A stretch of 32,497 bases of DNA from an uncultured Pseudomonadales bacterium. GTDB lineage: Bacteria > Pseudomonadota > Gammaproteobacteria > Pseudomonadales > Porticoccaceae. The position numbers were made by a program, and so were the translations under genes. Positions within the stretch are counted from its first letter, which is position 1. The number at the start of each line of letters is the position of its first letter. The stretch lies in contig CALKMW010000024.1 in the NCBI GenBank assembly GCA_938092205.1, positions 1-32,497 of the forward strand, in the 5' to 3' direction. Below are positions 1 to 8,368 of the stretch, piece by piece. The notes under the pieces are model-generated. The model had not been told where the DNA came from. It did not search any database and saw only the letters and a list, made by a program, of their open reading frames with translations.

Positions 1-1
1 T

Positions 2-3000
2 GGTTATACCTTTGATGGTCAAGGTTTTGCTGTGCAATTGCCCGAAGCAGGTCCTCTTTCAATTGATTCAGCCACTGGTACAGTCACTCTCAACGTTAAC
101 CCTGATTTTGAATCAGTGCCTGTTTATAATTTTGATATTGTTGCTGATTCTGGCCGCACTGGTTCGGCTAGCGTATCTATTATCAATGTCGATGAGGCGT
201 CACCTGTATTTGCTTCGGCAACTGCTGAAGTTACCATCGCAGAAGATGCTGAGGGTGTTATTTATACCGCTAGTGCCGATGATTCTGCAGATGTATCTGC
301 AGGTGTTACCTACAGCCTAGCTGGTGCTGATGCTGCGGCTTTTGCTATCACAGCTGGTGGTGATCTTACTGCTGTAGCTGTCGATTACGAGGCCAAGTCT
401 TCTTATAGTGTTACCATTATCGCTGATGATAGCGTTAACCCTGTTGCAGAGCTAGCTGTAACAGTTAATGTGACTAATACTGATGGCTTGCCACCAATCT
501 TTACTTCCTCTACAGAGGCTTCTGTTACAGAGAATAGTGGTGCTAATCAAGTGGTATATACAGCTATCGCTGAAGATGATGCGTCTGATATAACTTCAGA
601 TCCAATTAGCTATAGCCTGGTAGATGATGCCAATGGTGACTTCTCAATTGATGCCAGTGGCAATGTAACGCTGGCGACAAATCCTGACTTTGAAACTGAG
701 CCGTCCTACAGCTTTACTGTTAGAGCTACAGATGGTTCTGGTAATTATGCAGACCAAACTGTCACCCTTTCGATAATAGATGTCGACCCTGAAGGACCTG
801 TATTTAATGACAGTATTACCGATCTGGTTATCGATGAAAATGCTGAATTCTCTTATGCCGCTGTTGCCTCAGTTGATTCTCAGGTGGATGGTGAAGCTCT
901 AGTTTACAGCCTATCCGATGATGCTAATGGTGTATTTGTCATTGATGCCGTAACTGGTGAAGTATCAATGACGGTTGCCACCGATTATGAGCAGGGCAGT
1001 GATTATTCTTTTACCGTTGTAGCCACAGATGGATTTGGAATTTCCAATGACAAGACGGTTACGGTAACTATTAACAATCTAGATGATTATGCGCCAACAT
1101 TTGATGATAGTTCAGTTGTTCTGGATTCAATCGCCGAGAATACAGGTGCCGGTCAAATCATTTATACAGCTCAGGCCGACGATAGCGGCGATATAAGTGG
1201 TGGGGTGTCTTATGGTTTTGACGTCTATCCTACAACAACTACCCAGCCACCAGCCCTAGCTGAAAACACTCAGCATGTATATATTTCTGAAACGACTCGC
1301 TCTGAAGATGGCAGTCAGTTAACCGCAGTAGTTAGCTACACAAGCTCTGCCGCAGATACCACTGGCCTTGGCTTGCGAATTCATTTTGATAGTTCGGTTG
1401 TTTCTTTAAGCGCTTTATCAGATGCCTTAGGTGATGACGTTATCTTTACCAGTAATCAGGCTGTGGCCGATACTGGCGATGCAGATAATAACCCGGTTAC
1501 GGATAGCTTTGTGGATGCCGCTTGGGCATCGGTTCTTGGCGATTGGCCGGATCAAAACCTGCCAACTAACCTAATGACCCTTACATTCGATGTTAACGAC
1601 AGTGCGGCTGTATCAACTGTACTAGGAGTTTCTGCCATCGACAGTCCACAGGGCTTTGCATTTGATGGTCAGGCGCTTACTGTTCCTTTGTCTAAAGGTG
1701 CTGTTACAACACTAGGTTCACTAACTATTGATGCAGCTTCTGGTGAAGTTGTCTTGCTGGATGATCCAGATTATGAAGCTACCGCGGAATATAATTTTTC
1801 TGTTTTAGCTACAGATGCCGCCGGTAACCAAAGTGAATCGCAATCAGTAAATCTTGTGATTGATGATGAGCAGTTGGCAATTACCTCTTCCTCTACGGCC
1901 GATGCTGTTGATGAAAATATCGATGCCGGCTCTGTGGTTTACAGTACCACTATTTCTGGTGCCGAAGCTCAAGATACAATCAGTTACAGTCTTTTAACTA
2001 ATCTAATTGTTGAAGAGGGTGGAATAGAGCAACGTTTTGTTGAAAACACTGATGGCTCTGTAACCTTGCAGCTGTTTGTTAACCCATCCTTAGCAGCTAA
2101 CTACCCCAATAGTATTGAAAACTTTGACTTGGTGATTGGTTATGATGACTCTTCAATTACACAGCAATCGGTTTCTGTAGCCTCTGAGGCACAGTTGCAG
2201 ATTGTTGAAGAAACTGTAGTTGGTGAAATCAAGATCGCAGGGATCTTTATGGATCAACTGCCAAATATTTCTGATAATCCAATTGTTGAGCTAGTATTTA
2301 CACTGAATCAAGATATTACCTCTGCTGAATTTAGTGTCACAGATGTTTTGATTGGTACCGACCATAATCCACTACAGAACTCAATTTCACGTTACTACGA
2401 TAGTAGAGGCTTTGAAGTTGATGCTGTTACTGGTGATGTTTCTATCATTGACAGCCCAGATCATGAGTCAAGAACTGACTACGTTTTCTCTGTAATGGCA
2501 ATAGATGAAGCAAGAGGTCAATCGGATATTCAAACGGTCACCCTTGCTATTAATGATGTCGATGATTATGCGCCCGATGTTGATGTTGTTCCAAGCGAGC
2601 CTTTATCGCCTGATACTGGAATCACTGTTGTTGAGAATAGCAGTGCCGGTCAACAAATATTGACCGTTACTGCAGATGACTCAGGAGATATCACAGATGG
2701 TGTTACCTTTAGTCTTGCTGGCACTCATGCAGATTCATTTAACATCAATGCTAATACAGGTGCTGTTACCCTAATTGAAAATCCTGATTTTGAGGCTCAA
2801 AGTGCCTACAACTTTATTGTTATTGCCACAGATGCGGCAGGCAACTCTGATCAGCAGGATATACAAGTAAATATAGAAAATGTAGACGATAGTGCGCCTG
2901 AGATAACCTCAGGTGACACTGCTGGGTACATAGAGGAAAATTCAGGTGCCAACCAAATTATTTACTCTGTCATTGCTGATGACAGTAATGATATAAGTCA

Positions 3001-6000
3001 AACACCTATAACCTACAGTCTTTCTGGTGACAGTGATTCAGCTCTAAGTATTGATGCTAACACCGGTGATGTAACGCTTATAGACAATCCAGATATAGAA
3101 ACTCAAGCTCAGTATATCTTTACTGTGCTGGCGACTGATGGCGCAGGCAATGTAAGTCAGGGTCAAACGGTTACCCTAAATATAAATAATATTGATGAAA
3201 TTGCCCCAGAAATAACCTCTGGTACGGTTGCTAACAACGTTGTTGAAAATTCAGCAGCTGGCCAACATGTGTATACGGTAACCGCCACCGACAGTGCGGA
3301 TATCAGTGGTGGTGTTAGCTACTCTCTAGCAGATGATAGTGATGGAAGCTTTAGTATTGATGCCGAAGGCAAGGTAACATTTACTGCTTCAGCAGACTAT
3401 GAGCAGCAGTCTAGTTACAGCTTCTCGGTAGTCGCAACTGATGCTGCGGGCAATAGTAGTGAGCCTCATGTGGTTTCTATGCAGGTGGATAATCTGGATG
3501 AAACAGGACCCACTATAACCTCCTCTGATGCGGCCAATGATATTAATGAAAACTCTGGTGCAAATCAGGTTGTTTACACCGCAACAGCAGAGGACACAGA
3601 TTTTAATGGTGAAGAAGTCATTCAATTCAGTCTTGATGCTTCAAGCGATAGTGTCTTTAGTATCAATGCTGAAACCGGCGAAGTAACTCTTGCTGTTGAC
3701 CCAGATTTTGAAGCTCAAGATCAATACAGTTTTACCGTGATTGCCACCGATGGCTCGGGTAATCAAAGCCAATCTCAAACAGTCAGTCTTTCTGTTAATG
3801 ATGTTGATGACTTTACTCTAAGTGGTAAGGTCTATCACTGGGCTACTCAGTCCATGATGGATGATGTATCGATTTCTATGCATCACAAAGAGGGTGGCGA
3901 ACATATTAAGACGGTCTCCTCCAATGCAACAGGTGACTTCGTTGTTGATGAACTTGCTGCTGATGAGGTTACTGTAACCGCCCATCGTGAGCTTCAGTCT
4001 GAAGACACCGGTAGGCTTGTAACCTCACTTGATGCGTTGGCTGCACTTAAAATAGGTGTGGGCGATAACCCCAATACATTGGATGACTCTGGTATCAATC
4101 AAATTGGTGTCTCCGCTTATCAATTCTTTGCCGCTGACGTCAATAAGTCAGGCAAGGTAACCAGTGCCGATGCACTTGAAATTCTAAGGATGTCAGTTCG
4201 CTCACCCATTGCTATTGAAAGGGAATGGATGTTTATTGATGAGTCTCAAGATTTTTGGGATGAATCAGCCAATAATGGTCAGGGTGCACTAACGGTTAAT
4301 CGATTATCAGTTAGTCTTGATTATGATGGCGCTGAGATGACCGTAGAGGAAGCATCTGAAGCTAATTTTGTCGGTGTACTTCTTGGTGATGTATACAGTA
4401 ACTGGCAATCCCCAGATTCGCACAAGATGAACTACAGCCATTTTGTTAATCTTGAAAATGCTGGAAAAGCACCAATGTATCAATTTGGCATGTCACCACA
4501 AGAAGTGCCATTTGAAATTAATTCAGATGTAACGGCAGTGACTATTGATGAGAATTCTGGCGCACCACAGGTGGTATATAACACTAGCTCTAATGAGGCT
4601 GGTGCTACTTATACTCTTGGTAATGCGGGTGACTCAAGTCAATTTGAGATTGGCGCTGCATCTGGTGTTGTAGTGCTTAATGACAATCCAGATTTCGAAG
4701 CTAAGCAGTCCTATACCTTTGAGGTTATAGCCACTAACGAAGATGGTTATGTTGACTCTCAAGTAGTTACCCTAAATGTTAATAACCTTGATGAGGTAGC
4801 CCCAACAATTACCTCTGGTGATACGGCTACTAGCCTTATCGAAGATACTGGTGCAGGTCAGGTTATTTATACCGCCACTGCCACTGATAATAACGATGTA
4901 AGTGATGGAGTTAGCTATAGTCTAGCGGCTGGTGCCGATAGTGCGCTTTCAATCAATGCAGAAAGCGGTGAGGTAACCCTTTCAGATAATCCAGATTATG
5001 AAACAAACAGCAGCTATAGTTTTGATGTGGTTGCTACAGATGCAGCAGGTAATGCATCGCAGCAAGCAGTTACACTTGATATAACTAATATTGATGATAC
5101 AGCCCCAGTTATTACCTCTTTAGCTACAGCTAACCCGCTGGCTGAAAATTCTGGCTCCGGTCAGCAGGTATACACAGTAACCGCTGATGATTCTGTCGAC
5201 TCAAGTGGTGACCTTACCTATAGTCTAGTAGATCATTCAGCTGTTGAAAGTGCGATAAATATTCCTCAAGTTTTACCTAATACGCAGCATGTTTATGTGT
5301 CGGAAAGCACTAAATCTAGTGATGGTACTCAGGAAACCGTGGTTATTAGCTACAATGCAGAAGTTGATAGCTTAACGGGTTTAGGTTTAAAGGTTCATTT
5401 TGATAGTACTGTGCTAAGTGTTGCAGAGCTATCTGATGTTTTCGCAGATAGTAATTTATTCGCCTATGGCGATGCTATAGCTGATGATGACAATGCCGAT
5501 GGGGATGCTAATACAGATATGTATCTCTCTATGGGCTGGGCTTCAATCTATGCCGGTTGGCCAGGTGAATTACCTAAGGATTTAGCAACAGTAACCTTCA
5601 ATATATTGGATCAAGACGTTGATTTATCAACGATCAATTTTGTTACTACCAGTACCGCTGCTGGCTATACCTTCGATGGGCAATCTCATGATGTGGCCAT
5701 TGCAGATGGAGCATCTAGTTTAAGTATTGATAGCACAACGGGTGTGGTTACGCTTAATGACAATCCAGACTATGAAGCGCAAAGCGCCTATAGTTTTGAT
5801 GTTATAGCCACAGATGCTGCTGGTAATGCAAGTGAAGCCTTAACAGTAACCCTTGATATCACGAATTTAGATGAAGTAGCGCCAGTATTTGAATCATCTA
5901 CAGAAGCGAATATTGCTTCTGACATTGGTGCTAATAATGTTGTATATACCGCTCAGGCCAATGATGGGGATGATCCAGGTGCGCTTGTTTATGCAATAGA

Positions 6001-8368
6001 TCAAGATCAGGTTGCTTATTATTCCGAAGGTGTTTTTGAGCAGAACTTTATTGTCGAAGAAGATGGCTCAATCACCATGCAGTTGGCTCTAACTCAGGAT
6101 GTGATTGCGGATATTGCAGTTGGTGGTTTGGAGAACTTTGACGCTAGAATTGGATACAATCCTGATGAGGTAGGGGATATAACGGCTGATCAGTTAATTA
6201 CAACTGTGGAGCCTACCTTTGTTTCTAATAATGACGAAGTTGTTGGCGAGCTTTCTGCGGCGGCTTTGTATTTCCCTGCGACTACTGACGACTCATGGCA
6301 GCAAGTTTTCGCTGAGCTGAATTACACCCATGAGCCAGGTGTATTGTCCTCAAAGTTTGATATCTACAATGTACTAGTAGATGAATATGATTATACAGAC
6401 CCATCGTATTTTTCAAGTGCTAGATTAATGCTTGATACCGGTTTGACTATCGATTCTGCAACCGGTGAGGTGACCTTGGCCTCAAATCCAAATGCAATGG
6501 CTCAGCCTGAATATAGCTTTACCGTGACGGCGACAGACCCTGCAGGTAATGTGGCTTCACAAAAGGTAACCCTTACAGTTAATGAGCCTAGTCCAGCAAT
6601 CACTTCAACCGATCTGGATGTAGTTCTTGAAGGCAATGGTTCTGATCAGGTGGTTTACACTGCTACTAGTAATATTGCCGGTGCAAGCTATAGCTTGGTT
6701 GACCACACAGATTATTCTGCAGTAAATGATAATTCAGGTGGTGACCAGTCGCAGATACCTGCGGAAACAGTGATCACTGTGCCAGTGGTGCAGGCTGATA
6801 CCCAGCATGTTTATGTCTCGGCTGCTCAGCTATCAGACGATGGCAGTCAGATCACAGCCACATTCTCGTATCTGGCGGATGAAGCTAACCTAAGTGGAGT
6901 AGGGGTATCTGTAAACTTTGATAGTTCCGCTCTTAGTGTAAGCAGTGTGTCTGATGTATTCGCTGGTGCTATTGCATCAGGGGCGCAGTCAGCAGACTCG
7001 GGAAACACCGATAATGATTCATCCACCGATCAGTTATTAAGTTTTGGTTGGGCTTCTTTATTTGGTCAATTCCCAGGCTCAACTTCGGTTGACTTAGCCA
7101 CAGTGACCTTTGATATTGCGGATAGCGCTTCAGGTTCAACGGGATTGAATTTGGTAAGAACCAGCTCTGCTGCGGGTTATACCTTTGATGGTCAGTCGCA
7201 AGAATTGGCTATTTCAGCTGCTTCGGGTTCAACAGCTAATCAAACAGAGTCTGTAATTACAGCTCCAGAGGTGCAGGCTAATACACAACATGTATATGTG
7301 TCTGAAAGCACCAAGTCTGAAGATGGTACACAGGTAACAGTGACCTATTCATATCTAGCAGATAACGCCAATCTTAGCGGTATTGGCATGTCATTAAACT
7401 TTGATAGCTCTGTTCTCGCCTTAAGTGAAGTGTCCAATGTATTTACAGGCGCTATCGCATCTGGCTCGCAGTCAGTGGATTCTAGTGATACAGATGCCGA
7501 TTCAGCTACGGACCAAAAATTAAGCTTTGGCTGGGCTTCGTTGTTTAGCCAGTTCCCAGGTTCAGTACCTGTTGAATTGGCTACAATCACCTTTGATATT
7601 GTCGATACTAATGCAGACTCCACTGGTTTGAATCTGGTAGATACTAGTACTCAGGCAGGTTATACCTTTGACGGTCAATCTTATGATGTGCTTATTGCTG
7701 GTGATACGGGATCAGGCTCAGATGATGTGAGTTCAGTCCTAAGCATCGATAGTGTAACAGGTGCTGTTACTCTTGCCGGTGAAGCGAACTACCAAAATGT
7801 ATCAAACTACAACTTTACAGTTACTGCTAATAATGGCAGCGACAGTGCATCCCAGGATGTGGGTCTAGTAGTGGCGGATACCTTGGTCACTTCTGAGGCC
7901 TATCAGGGTACTGATAATGCAGATGTTATTGCATTAGGCTTGGGTTCTGCCGATGTTACTTCTGGTAATGGTGAAGACGTATTTGTTGTTGCGCAAAGCT
8001 TAGATGAGTGGAGTGCTTCTGCCCATACCCTAACTGATTTTGATTCTTCGTCGGATACTATTGATGTTTCAGCTGCCTTGTTAGCCGCAGGCTATACCGG
8101 TATTTCAGCGGTAGATGGGGTTGAGGAGAATCAATTGAATCAAATGACCAATGTCTCATCCGATATATTGGATCTAATCAGTGGCAATGACAGCAGTTTG
8201 GACAATGCTATTGGTAGCTATTTTGATGATGCATCTAATGTGCTTACCATATTTGCTGATTCAGATGCCTCTGTAGGCTCAAGCTCTATCGAGTCGATTG
8301 AGATCTCAGTAGGTGATAGCTCAACAGTAGAGGAAGATGATCTGACTCTAACGGCATTTATTGCCTAA
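2..8368 (+). CDS. Giant cadherin-like repeat protein with cohesin-like inserts, a dockerin-like module and a T1SS-type C-terminus (5' truncated by the window; the ORF stays open to base 2)
   Basis: The frame is open upstream of the listed GTG at 32. Bases 2-31 encode GYTFDGQGFA, which matches the internal motif [AG]-[YF]-x-F-D-G-Q seen at the end of later inserts. About 14 further repeats follow the pattern 'API/VITS..ENSGA.QVVYTATA.D...YSL...SIDA.TGEVTL..NPDYE....YSF.V.ATDAAGN.S....V.L.I.N.DE.AP'. The C-terminus is acidic and lacks cysteine. Confidence 0.93.
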   Translation, partial: GYTFDGQGFAVQLPEAGPLSIDSATGTVTLNVNPDFESVPVYNFDIVADSGRTGSASVSIINVDEASPVFASATAEVTIAEDAEGVIYTASADDSADVSAGVTYSLAGADAAAFAITAGGDLTAVAVDYEAKSSYSVTIIADDSVNPVAELAVTVNVTNTDGLPPIFTSSTEASVTENSGANQVVYTAIAEDDASDITSDPISYSLVDDANGDFSIDASGNVTLATNPDFETEPSYSFTVRATDGSGNYADQTVTLSIIDVDPEGPVFNDSITDLVIDENAEFSYAAVASVDSQVDGEALVYSLSDDANGVFVIDAVTGEVSMTVATDYEQGSDYSFTVVATDGFGISNDKTVTVTINNLDDYAPTFDDSSVVLDSIAENTGAGQIIYTAQADDSGDISGGVSYGFDVYPTTTTQPPALAENTQHVYISETTRSEDGSQLTAVVSYTSSAADTTGLGLRIHFDSSVVSLSALSDALGDDVIFTSNQAVADTGDADNNPVTDSFVDAAWASVLGDWPDQNLPTNLMTLTFDVNDSAAVSTVLGVSAIDSPQGFAFDGQALTVPLSKGAVTTLGSLTIDAASGEVVLLDDPDYEATAEYNFSVLATDAAGNQSESQSVNLVIDDEQLAITSSSTADAVDENIDAGSVVYSTTISGAEAQDTISYSLLTNLIVEEGGIEQRFVENTDGSVTLQLFVNPSLAANYPNSIENFDLVIGYDDSSITQQSVSVASEAQLQIVEETVVGEIKIAGIFMDQLPNISDNPIVELVFTLNQDITSAEFSVTDVLIGTDHNPLQNSISRYYDSRGFEVDAVTGDVSIIDSPDHESRTDYVFSVMAIDEARGQSDIQTVTLAINDVDDYAPDVDVVPSEPLSPDTGITVVENSSAGQQILTVTADDSGDITDGVTFSLAGTHADSFNINANTGAVTLIENPDFEAQSAYNFIVIATDAAGNSDQQDIQVNIENVDDSAPEITSGDTAGYIEENSGANQIIYSVIADDSNDISQTPITYSLSGDSDSALSIDANTGDVTLIDNPDIETQAQYIFTVLATDGAGNVSQGQTVTLNINNIDEIAPEITSGTVANNVVENSAAGQHVYTVTATDSADISGGVSYSLADDSDGSFSIDAEGKVTFTASADYEQQSSYSFSVVATDAAGNSSEPHVVSMQVDNLDETGPTITSSDAANDINENSGANQVVYTATAEDTDFNGEEVIQFSLDASSDSVFSINAETGEVTLAVDPDFEAQDQYSFTVIATDGSGNQSQSQTVSLSVNDVDDFTLSGKVYHWATQSMMDDVSISMHHKEGGEHIKTVSSNATGDFVVDELAADEVTVTAHRELQSEDTGRLVTSLDALAALKIGVGDNPNTLDDSGINQIGVSAYQFFAADVNKSGKVTSADALEILRMSVRSPIAIEREWMFIDESQDFWDESANNGQGALTVNRLSVSLDYDGAEMTVEEASEANFVGVLLGDVYSNWQSPDSHKMNYSHFVNLENAGKAPMYQFGMSPQEVPFEINSDVTAVTIDENSGAPQVVYNTSSNEAGATYTLGNAGDSSQFEIGAASGVVVLNDNPDFEAKQSYTFEVIATNEDGYVDSQVVTLNVNNLDEVAPTITSGDTATSLIEDTGAGQVIYTATATDNNDVSDGVSYSLAAGADSALSINAESGEVTLSDNPDYETNSSYSFDVVATDAAGNASQQAVTLDITNIDDTAPVITSLATANPLAENSGSGQQVYTVTADDSVDSSGDLTYSLVDHSAVESAINIPQVLPNTQHVYVSESTKSSDGTQETVVISYNAEVDSLTGLGLKVHFDSTVLSVAELSDVFADSNLFAYGDAIADDDNADGDANTDMYLSMGWASIYAGWPGELPKDLATVTFNILDQDVDLSTINFVTTSTAAGYTFDGQSHDVAIADGASSLSIDSTTGVVTLNDNPDYEAQSAYSFDVIATDAAGNASEALTVTLDITNLDEVAPVFESSTEANIASDIGANNVVYTAQANDGDDPGALVYAIDQDQVAYYSEGVFEQNFIVEEDGSITMQLALTQDVIADIAVGGLENFDARIGYNPDEVGDITADQLITTVEPTFVSNNDEVVGELSAAALYFPATTDDSWQQVFAELNYTHEPGVLSSKFDIYNVLVDEYDYTDPSYFSSARLMLDTGLTIDSATGEVTLASNPNAMAQPEYSFTVTATDPAGNVASQKVTLTVNEPSPAITSTDLDVVLEGNGSDQVVYTATSNIAGASYSLVDHTDYSAVNDNSGGDQSQIPAETVITVPVVQADTQHVYVSAAQLSDDGSQITATFSYLADEANLSGVGVSVNFDSSALSVSSVSDVFAGAIASGAQSADSGNTDNDSSTDQLLSFGWASLFGQFPGSTSVDLATVTFDIADSASGSTGLNLVRTSSAAGYTFDGQSQELAISAASGSTANQTESVITAPEVQANTQHVYVSESTKSEDGTQVTVTYSYLADNANLSGIGMSLNFDSSVLALSEVSNVFTGAIASGSQSVDSSDTDADSATDQKLSFGWASLFSQFPGSVPVELATITFDIVDTNADSTGLNLVDTSTQAGYTFDGQSYDVLIAGDTGSGSDDVSSVLSIDSVTGAVTLAGEANYQNVSNYNFTVTANNGSDSASQDVGLVVADTLVTSEAYQGTDNADVIALGLGSADVTSGNGEDVFVVAQSLDEWSASAHTLTDFDSSSDTIDVSAALLAAGYTGISAVDGVEENQLNQMTNVSSDILDLISGNDSSLDNAIGSYFDDASNVLTIFADSDASVGSSSIESIEISVGDSSTVEEDDLTLTAFIA
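1222..1712 (+). other. Family-A insert (A1), cohesin-like module inside a cadherin-like repeat
   Basis: AENTQHVYISETTRSEDGSQLTAVVSYTSSAADTTGLGLRIHFDSSVVSLSAL...WASVLGDWP...LMTLTFDV...GFAFDGQAL. It sits between 'VSYGF' and 'SLTIDAASGEV' of the host repeat. Confidence 0.6.
1995..2407 (+). other. Family-B insert (B1) inside a cadherin-like repeat
   Basis: LIVEEGGIEQRFVENTDGSVTLQLFVN...IENFDLVIGYDDSSI...EETVVGEIKIAGIFM...VELVFTLNQDITSAEFSVTDVLI. Paralogous to the segment at about 6001-6440. It sits between 'ISYSL' and 'FEVDAVTGDV'. Confidence 0.55.
3812..4510 (+). other. Dockerin-like module with an N-terminal SdrD-B/CarboxypepD_reg-like segment
   Basis: LSGKVYHWATQSMMDDVSISMHH... followed by 'TSLDALAALKIGVGDNPN...YQFFAADVNKSGKVTSADALEILRMSVRSP...EWMFIDESQDFWDE...NFVGVLLGDVYSNW'. 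It has a duplicated F-hand-like helix and a Ca-loop DVNKSGKVTSAD at 4136-4171. Confidence 0.7.
5231..5718 (+). other. Family-A insert (A2), cohesin-like module inside a cadherin-like repeat
   Basis: LPNTQHVYVSESTKSSDGTQETVVISYNAEVDSLTGLGLKVHFDSTVLSVAELSDVF...LSMGWASIYAGWPGELPKDLATVTFNI...AGYTFDGQSHDV. It sits between 'LTYSLVDHS' and 'SLSIDSTTGVV'. Confidence 0.6.
6001..6440 (+). other. Family-B insert (B2) inside a cadherin-like repeat
   Basis: FEQNFIVEEDGSITMQLALTQ...LENFDARIGYNPDEV...NNDEVVGELSAAALYF...VFAELNYTHEPGVLSSKFDIYNVLV. It sits between 'LVYAI' and 'LTIDSATGEV' and resembles B1. Confidence 0.55.
6701..7738 (+). repeat. Tandem family-A inserts (A3 and A4), about 483 bp period, within one cadherin-like repeat
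   Basis: The 'VITxPxVQAxTQHVYVS' block begins near 6779 and again near 7261; equivalent 'gtgcaggct' codons are at 6788 and 7271 (483 nt = 161 codons). Both contain DF/NFDSS..L....S.VF.GAIASG.QS.DS..TD.DS.TD..LSFGWASLF.QFPGS..V.LAT.TFDI...TGLNLV.TS..AGYTFDGQS. Confidence 0.75.
7888..8368 (+). other. Type I secretion C-terminal-target-like region
   Basis: YQGTDNADVIALGLGSADVTSGNGEDVFVV...HTLTDFDSSSDTIDVSALL...LTIFADSD...ESIEISVGDSSTVEEDDLTLTAFIA. Degenerate RTX/serralysin-like 'D-x-I-D-V-S' and an acidic/hydrophobic tail. No canonical GGxGxD nonapeptide array. Confidence 0.5.

Follow-up and report, generated by a model that had tools for sequence, protein, structure and literature searches.

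The window, the whole stretch of 32,497 nucleotides analysed here from the genome of an uncultured member of the Porticoccaceae, begins inside the gene of a giant cadherin-like protein in which at least six stalk repeats are split. Into each split repeat one module, or a tandem pair of modules, is inserted between the C and D strands, and it can be said with high confidence that these modules are cohesin-like and nested within the C-D loop of the repeat. Modules are plugged into this loop of the cadherin-like sandwich repeatedly, in the window and among related loci. The reading favoured here, which we regard as reasonably likely, is that a cadherin stalk, secreted by a type I system, carries cohesin-like modules sideways on its split repeats and with them probably docks dockerin-bearing proteins, so that the split domains of adhesins and cohesin-dockerin docking would be joined in one molecule.

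Layout and probable export of the giant protein

The first base of the window is base 1 of its contig (C24 of G000, the window's own genome), a contig edge that falls inside the ORF of the giant. The protein scored above the Pfam cut-off for PF00028 (Cadherin), and a profile HMM of 102 positions, built from 12 intact repeats (five from the window and seven from L022, a contig of a related Porticoccaceae MAG), resolves nine cadherin-like repeats that are intact, five that are interrupted and, at the N-terminus, the final part of a sixth interrupted one (Table 1). The inserted modules fall into two families, A and B. The remainder of the window outside the giant encodes core metabolism.

Table 1. 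Features of the giant cadherin-like protein in the window (nucleotide positions).
Feature	Position	Strand	Evidence
Giant cadherin-like protein, 2788 aa	2..8368	+	open frame; PF00028 E 1.3e-110, 13 stretches; 5' end truncated by contig edge
A0 ('GYTFDGQ...'), tail of another family A insert, N-terminal 13 aa of ORF	2..40	+	sequence
A0 host repeat, second half	about 47-196	+	cad HMM positions 47-100 at aa 16-65
Three intact cadherin-like repeats	203..1093	+	cad HMM 60, 123, 109 bits
A1 host repeat, first half	1094..1219	+	break scan, break at HMM 42
A1, cohesin-like module, family A, nested in C-D loop	1247..1690	+	A profile 230 bits; family A = Cohesin PF00963
A1 host repeat, second half	1700..1867	+	joined score 102.9 bits
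B1 host repeat, first half	1880..2002	+	break scan, break at HMM 45
B1, cohesin-like module, family B, nested in C-D loop	2003..2398	+	B profile 201 bits; B profile matches PDB cohesins
B1 host repeat, second half	2399..2572	+	joined score 91.6 bits
Four intact cadherin-like repeats	2609..3811	+	cad HMM 101-138 bits
Carboxypeptidase-regulatory-like (PF13620) and dockerin-like segment, in series between cadherin repeats	3815..4183	+	PF13620 1.9e-4, PF00404 0.0011
Dockerin loop DVNKSGKVTSAD of the dockerin-like segment	about 4097-4183	+	
Two intact cadherin-like repeats	4517..5104	+	cad HMM 67 and 134 bits
A2 host repeat, first half	5105..5242	+	break scan, break at HMM 47
A2, cohesin-like module, nested in C-D loop	5261..5701	+	A profile 246 bits; AlphaFold2 beta-sandwich
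A2 host repeat, second half	5714..5878	+	joined score 132.2 bits; pLDDT 83-93
B2 host repeat, first half	5882..6010	+	break scan, break at HMM 46
B2, cohesin-like module, nested in C-D loop	6011..6433	+	B profile 212 bits
B2 host repeat, second half	6434..6586	+	joined score 89.9 bits
Tandem-pair host repeat, first half	6593..6697	+	break scan, break at HMM 42
A3, cohesin-like module, first of tandem pair	6782..7213	+	A profile 221 bits; PF00963 18.9 bits, cut-off 24.1
A4, cohesin-like module, second of tandem pair	7265..7696	+	A profile 234 bits; PF00963 E 9.4e-5
Tandem-pair host repeat, second half	7718..7879	+	joined score 63.2 bits
C-terminal region (...LTLTAFIA at its end), probable type I secretion signal	7880..8365	+	inferred; relatives' ends alike

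A second contig of the same genome (C2) carries, in order, a secreted protein with a family A module and a dockerin-like doublet, a TolC-type outer membrane efflux protein, an ABC transporter, an HlyD protein and, at the contig end, the start of a cadherin giant, of which the window's gene is presumably the rest. The same order lies on one contig in genome G010, where the giant is 4789 aa long and has a family A module in the C-D slot. On the strength of this order (TolC, ABC and HlyD, then the giant), the protein is likely to be a stalk on the cell surface that leaves the cell through the type I system encoded next to it. Its C-terminus gave a weak match to the RTX-protease (serralysin)-type model NF035945 (1.1e-6), far below the cut-off. 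At the other end, the predicted N-terminus of the giant (L118; contig C2, positions 1-648, minus strand) shows, on visual inspection, a segment resembling LysM/FimV and a transmembrane stretch ahead of the first cadherin repeat; searched against Pfam, this N-terminus gave no match.

The C-D slot in cadherin-like repeats

The point of interruption was located by a break scan, in which every possible internal stretch of an interrupted repeat was cut out and the cut leaving the best cadherin score was kept. In the window, the best-scoring breaks follow residues 406, 667, 1747, 2003 and 2232, with inserts of 160, 132, 157, 141 and 340 aa respectively, and on the 102-position HMM they all lie between the C strand ('YSL'; '...vtysl' in the model) and the D strand ('SIDA.TG'; '...lsid.etGeV' in the model), as listed with the joined scores in Table 1. 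The initial annotation had placed the five complete interruptions at these same sites and had assigned the tandem pair to the same slot as the single modules, and both observations are borne out by the scan. Removal of the inserts, which it had proposed as a check, restores cadherin-like repeats that score 63-132 bits, and a MAFFT alignment of two-repeat stretches places the gap at the same C-D position.

Related loci reuse the slot, with breaks at HMM position 44 in L054 (family A insert), 46 in L022 (B), L072 (A) and L081 (B), 47 in ORF 747 of L080 (A) and 49 in L060 (A); in L022 a tandem A-A pair also occupies the corresponding host, the second half of that repeat lying past the contig end. 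Across loci, 11 of the 12 rejoined repeats are broken in the C-D loop and one in the B-C loop, and the joined halves score 59-132 bits. The exception is a family B module at residues 508-656 of a 3263-aa ORF in L080, which enters at HMM position 31 and represents a second plug-in position. Some A and B modules, moreover, stand in series, either between complete repeats or ahead of the C-terminal region (L072, L060, L080). Given the B-C loop case and the in-series copies, the C-D slot is a strong and dominant site but neither absolute nor exclusive, and an absolute slot is ruled out; the earlier proposal of one fixed insertion position thus holds for every complete interruption in the window and for most of those in relatives, but not for the 3263-aa ORF of L080.

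The spacing of the two halves separates split from intact repeats. When 157 repeats were surveyed with separate HMMs for the N-terminal and C-terminal halves, the half-to-half distance was bimodal: it was below 40 aa in 143 repeats and 137-344 aa in 12, with two weak odd cases. This two-population pattern is far from chance, and no coincidence probability is attached to it because some hosts are orthologous between genomes and the cases are therefore partly dependent. A protein from another bacterial family (L109; G120:C1, ORF of 3656 aa) has a cadherin-like repeat that is apparently interrupted in the C-D loop at about residues 2046-2335, by a candidate insert of ~290 aa with a Cadherin_5/Big_9 domain; the first half of the repeat scores only 9 bits. 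On this sequence match, the slot may accept other insert families.

An AlphaFold2 model was obtained for residues 1601-1960, which comprise one intact repeat and, after it, the A2 host, from 17 aligned rows (mean pLDDT 81, pTM 0.50). The intact repeat has strands at model positions 21-24, 37-41, 49-51, 57-60, 71-80 and 85-95, and the split repeat at 121-125 and 139-143 and then, beyond the insert, at 307-309, 315-318, 329-337 and 347-354. The strand order is identical in the two repeats, with blocks mostly at pLDDT 83-97, and the A2 insert forms a separate all-beta domain, a beta-sandwich with its strands within 161-299 (pLDDT mostly 54-87). The top PDB matches of the model in Foldseek are cadherins; among them is 5vh2, a chain of two repeats with 203-209 aa, whose alignment spans 358-363 columns, a length at which the insert must be a gap, although the superposition is loose (TM-score ~0.5 on the target). 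The flanking halves are thus predicted to form one repeat, as the initial annotation held, and the inserts would project sideways from the stalk. For a B host repeat, modelled from three aligned rows, AlphaFold2 gave a pLDDT of 37 and no usable fold; alignments that included intact rows put the C strand in the wrong place and were left out of this modelling.

The outcome that would speak for independent half-domains with the insert in series was not seen in the 1601-1960 model. Such a serial reading has in its favour the modules found between or beside complete repeats in L072, L060 and L080, but it is highly improbable for the split repeats, in which the halves are complementary, score as one repeat when joined and take up the strand pattern of an intact neighbour in the model; on these joined scores and this pattern, independent half-domains are rejected.

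The general principle has been published. In RTX adhesins such as MpIBP, FrhA and AhLap, 'split domains' bud ligand-binding domains sideways, the host being an Ig-like or other domain and the break, where it is given in the available text, falling after the first strand, as in FrhA and AhLap (PMC12077191, PMC10865825). The giant shares with them a beta-sandwich in a long, in its own case probably, type I-secreted adhesin that is interrupted by a whole domain with adjacent termini and then completed, and its repeats are likewise discontinuous in sequence and completed after the insert. It differs in four respects: the hosts are cadherin-like repeats of the stalk itself, belonging to the same family as the intact repeats next to them; the break lies between the C and D strands (HMM 42-49) and not after the first strand; a single protein has no fewer than six such interruptions; and the inserts are cohesin-like, where those of the RTX adhesins are lectins, PA14, RTX or vWFA domains. 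The earlier suggestion that no such family had been described must therefore be narrowed to the combination, since a search of the open literature found no account of cadherin repeats with cohesin modules nested in them.

Identity and movement of the nested modules

Family A matches PF00963 (Cohesin) in 20 of its 44 members, with a best value of 1.2e-7, and the next family is matched by 2 of the 44. Two family A modules of the window's genome exceed the PF00963 cut-off (31.3 and 27.1 bits), which is also passed by family A modules of relatives, while the window copies A3 (Table 1) and A4 (21.7-23.1 bits) score below its 24.1 bits. The family A profile, with either 4 or 44 rows, found no match among solved structures in the PDB. 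Family B had no match in Pfam; a seven-row profile of it matches the PDB entries 5nrm and 5nrk (1.9e-6) and, over the same stretch, the scaffoldin chains 1g1k, 2vn5 and 4ums at 0.3-0.5. Chain A of 5nrm and 5nrk bears the table name 'Endoglucanase'; in view of the alignment, we take it to be a cohesin. Compared directly by hhalign, A and B gave a probability of 2.5, which is not significant. The initial annotation had described two unrelated-looking insert families; the cohesin matches of both lead us to reject unrelated families, and A and B are probably two branches of one cohesin-like fold.

Family A modules also occur in a lipoprotein common to three genomes, at one place in G000 (L017/L121, C64) and G035 (L071, C39) and at another in G043 (L073, C25); where the site is unoccupied, the host sequence runs through it without a break. 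This is evidence for movement between sites, and the lipoprotein could anchor partners at the outer membrane. The two members of the tandem pair share 68% identity within the window and 90% within L022, against 45-49% between the two species, and the tandem copies were therefore duplicated or homogenised separately. In L081 (G035:C22, 4097-5680), a secreted protein consists of one split cadherin repeat with a family B module followed by a dockerin-like doublet, a case in which the split cassette travels as a unit.

How the slot came to be used so often allows a further explanation, compatible with any function, in which a cassette of host repeat and module arose once and was then copied, the loop not being generally permissive. 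The occurrence of the B split repeat as a unit ahead of a doublet in L081, the cohesin-like nature of both insert families and a tree in which a single host clade is not rejected (AU p 0.19) all agree with one origin. Against it, the hosts are scattered in the free tree, with nine changes of state, the G010 host has its nearest matches (63%) among the intact repeats of the same protein, and modules have entered new sites, B in the B-C loop of L080 and A at the two lipoprotein places. A single origin is thus conceivable, but somewhat doubtful.

Possible dockerin-like partners and role of the stalk

The giant itself contains a dockerin-like segment, for which PF00404 gives 19.6 bits alone or 21.2, and 23 with its neighbours, against a cut-off of 22.9. 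Elsewhere in the genome there are ten dockerin-like doublets, which in single scans remain under the PF00404 cut-off and have a loop one residue longer than that of classical dockerins; their best PDB match, a weak one (E 0.019), is the dockerin in 1ohz, a cohesin-dockerin complex. The doublets are fused to Glyco_hydro_cc (C71, 5.9e-58), GH16 (C64; C27) and other domains, and some are carried by beta-1,3-glucanases. Over 43 related genomes, doublets were present in 22 of the 23 with family A and in 10 of the 20 in which A was not detected (Fisher p 0.001, Spearman 0.73, with kinship ignored). In many dockerin proteins the doublet has a family A module next to it, so that the pair could also act within a single protein.

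These elements suggest a mechanism in which a surface stalk of great length, built from cadherin-like repeats and probably secreted by a type I system, would, at no fewer than six split repeats, let the chain exit the beta-sandwich after the C strand, fold one cohesin-like module or two in tandem and re-enter to complete strands D to G. The modules would then stand as side branches, where they may bind dockerin-like modules carried by secreted glucanases, by other cohesin-dockerin proteins or by neighbouring stalks, and the stalk would serve as a scaffoldin-like holder of enzymes or matrix. The chances that dockerin docking is the main role appear about even, and those of enzyme display in particular somewhat lower. 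More tentative still is a Gram-negative marine counterpart of the cellulosome, in which the cadherin stalk would take the part of the scaffoldin and dock dockerin-bearing GH16 and Glyco_hydro_cc beta-1,3-glucanases at the surface for use on an algal glucan such as laminarin.

Two other roles have to be weighed against docking of dockerin-bearing proteins. The stalk might be a plain RTX-type adhesin that reuses the cohesin fold, its nested modules binding to algae, particles or other cells through the glycans or proteins there. The T1SS gene order fits such an adhesin, published split domains carry lectins, PA14 and other ligand-binding domains (PMC12077191, PMC10865825), and carbohydrate binding is reported for cadherin-type proteins of Saccharophagus degradans (Fraiberg et al. 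2011, as cited in PMC12153261). Yet family A and dockerin-like doublets recur jointly in genomes, often in one protein, and the giant has a dockerin-like segment of its own, which makes this role unlikely. That segment, together with the cohesin-like modules of the same chain, could act among stalks, as chain-to-chain cross-links or intramolecular clamps that build a biofilm matrix, with no enzyme display; the giant of L080 has a similar dockerin-like segment, judged by eye, and in several proteins family A adjoins a doublet. Doublets without family A on secreted glucanases would, however, be superfluous for cross-linking, and a pure matrix function is improbable.

The docking of dockerin-bearing proteins by nested cohesin-like modules has counterparts in known systems. 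Like a cellulosomal scaffoldin, the giant is a single long chain in which several cohesin-like modules are combined with a dockerin-like segment, and as in cohesin-dockerin systems, the same genome encodes polysaccharide-degrading enzymes with dockerin-like modules. Unlike in scaffoldins, the cohesins are nested in cadherin repeats and not serial, the host is Gram-negative with a probable T1SS and the dockerin-like loops are non-canonical, the likeness being one of sequence. A further counterpart is Saccharophagus degradans 2-40, a marine polysaccharide-degrading gammaproteobacterium with cadherin-like proteins, in whose genome the authors noted distant cohesin-like modules in six ORFs and dockerin-like motifs in two (PMC2386152); its cadherin and cohesin/dockerin-like proteins are further treated by Fraiberg et al. 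(2010, 2011, as cited in PMC12153261). As far as these sources extend, they describe for it neither nesting of cohesin-like modules in cadherin repeats nor a T1SS scaffold.

The arrangement suggests a way for a free-living marine bacterium to keep glucanases on its surface, and a natural cadherin-repeat loop that tolerates whole-domain grafts is useful for protein design. One genome moreover offers a testable set of partners, with two nested module families and about ten dockerin-like doublets. Several of the domains concerned are united in a 1595-aa protein of this genome (L021; G000:C27, 1961-6745, minus strand), which carries CBM6, GH16 and CotH kinase domains together with a cohesin-like A module and a dockerin-like doublet.
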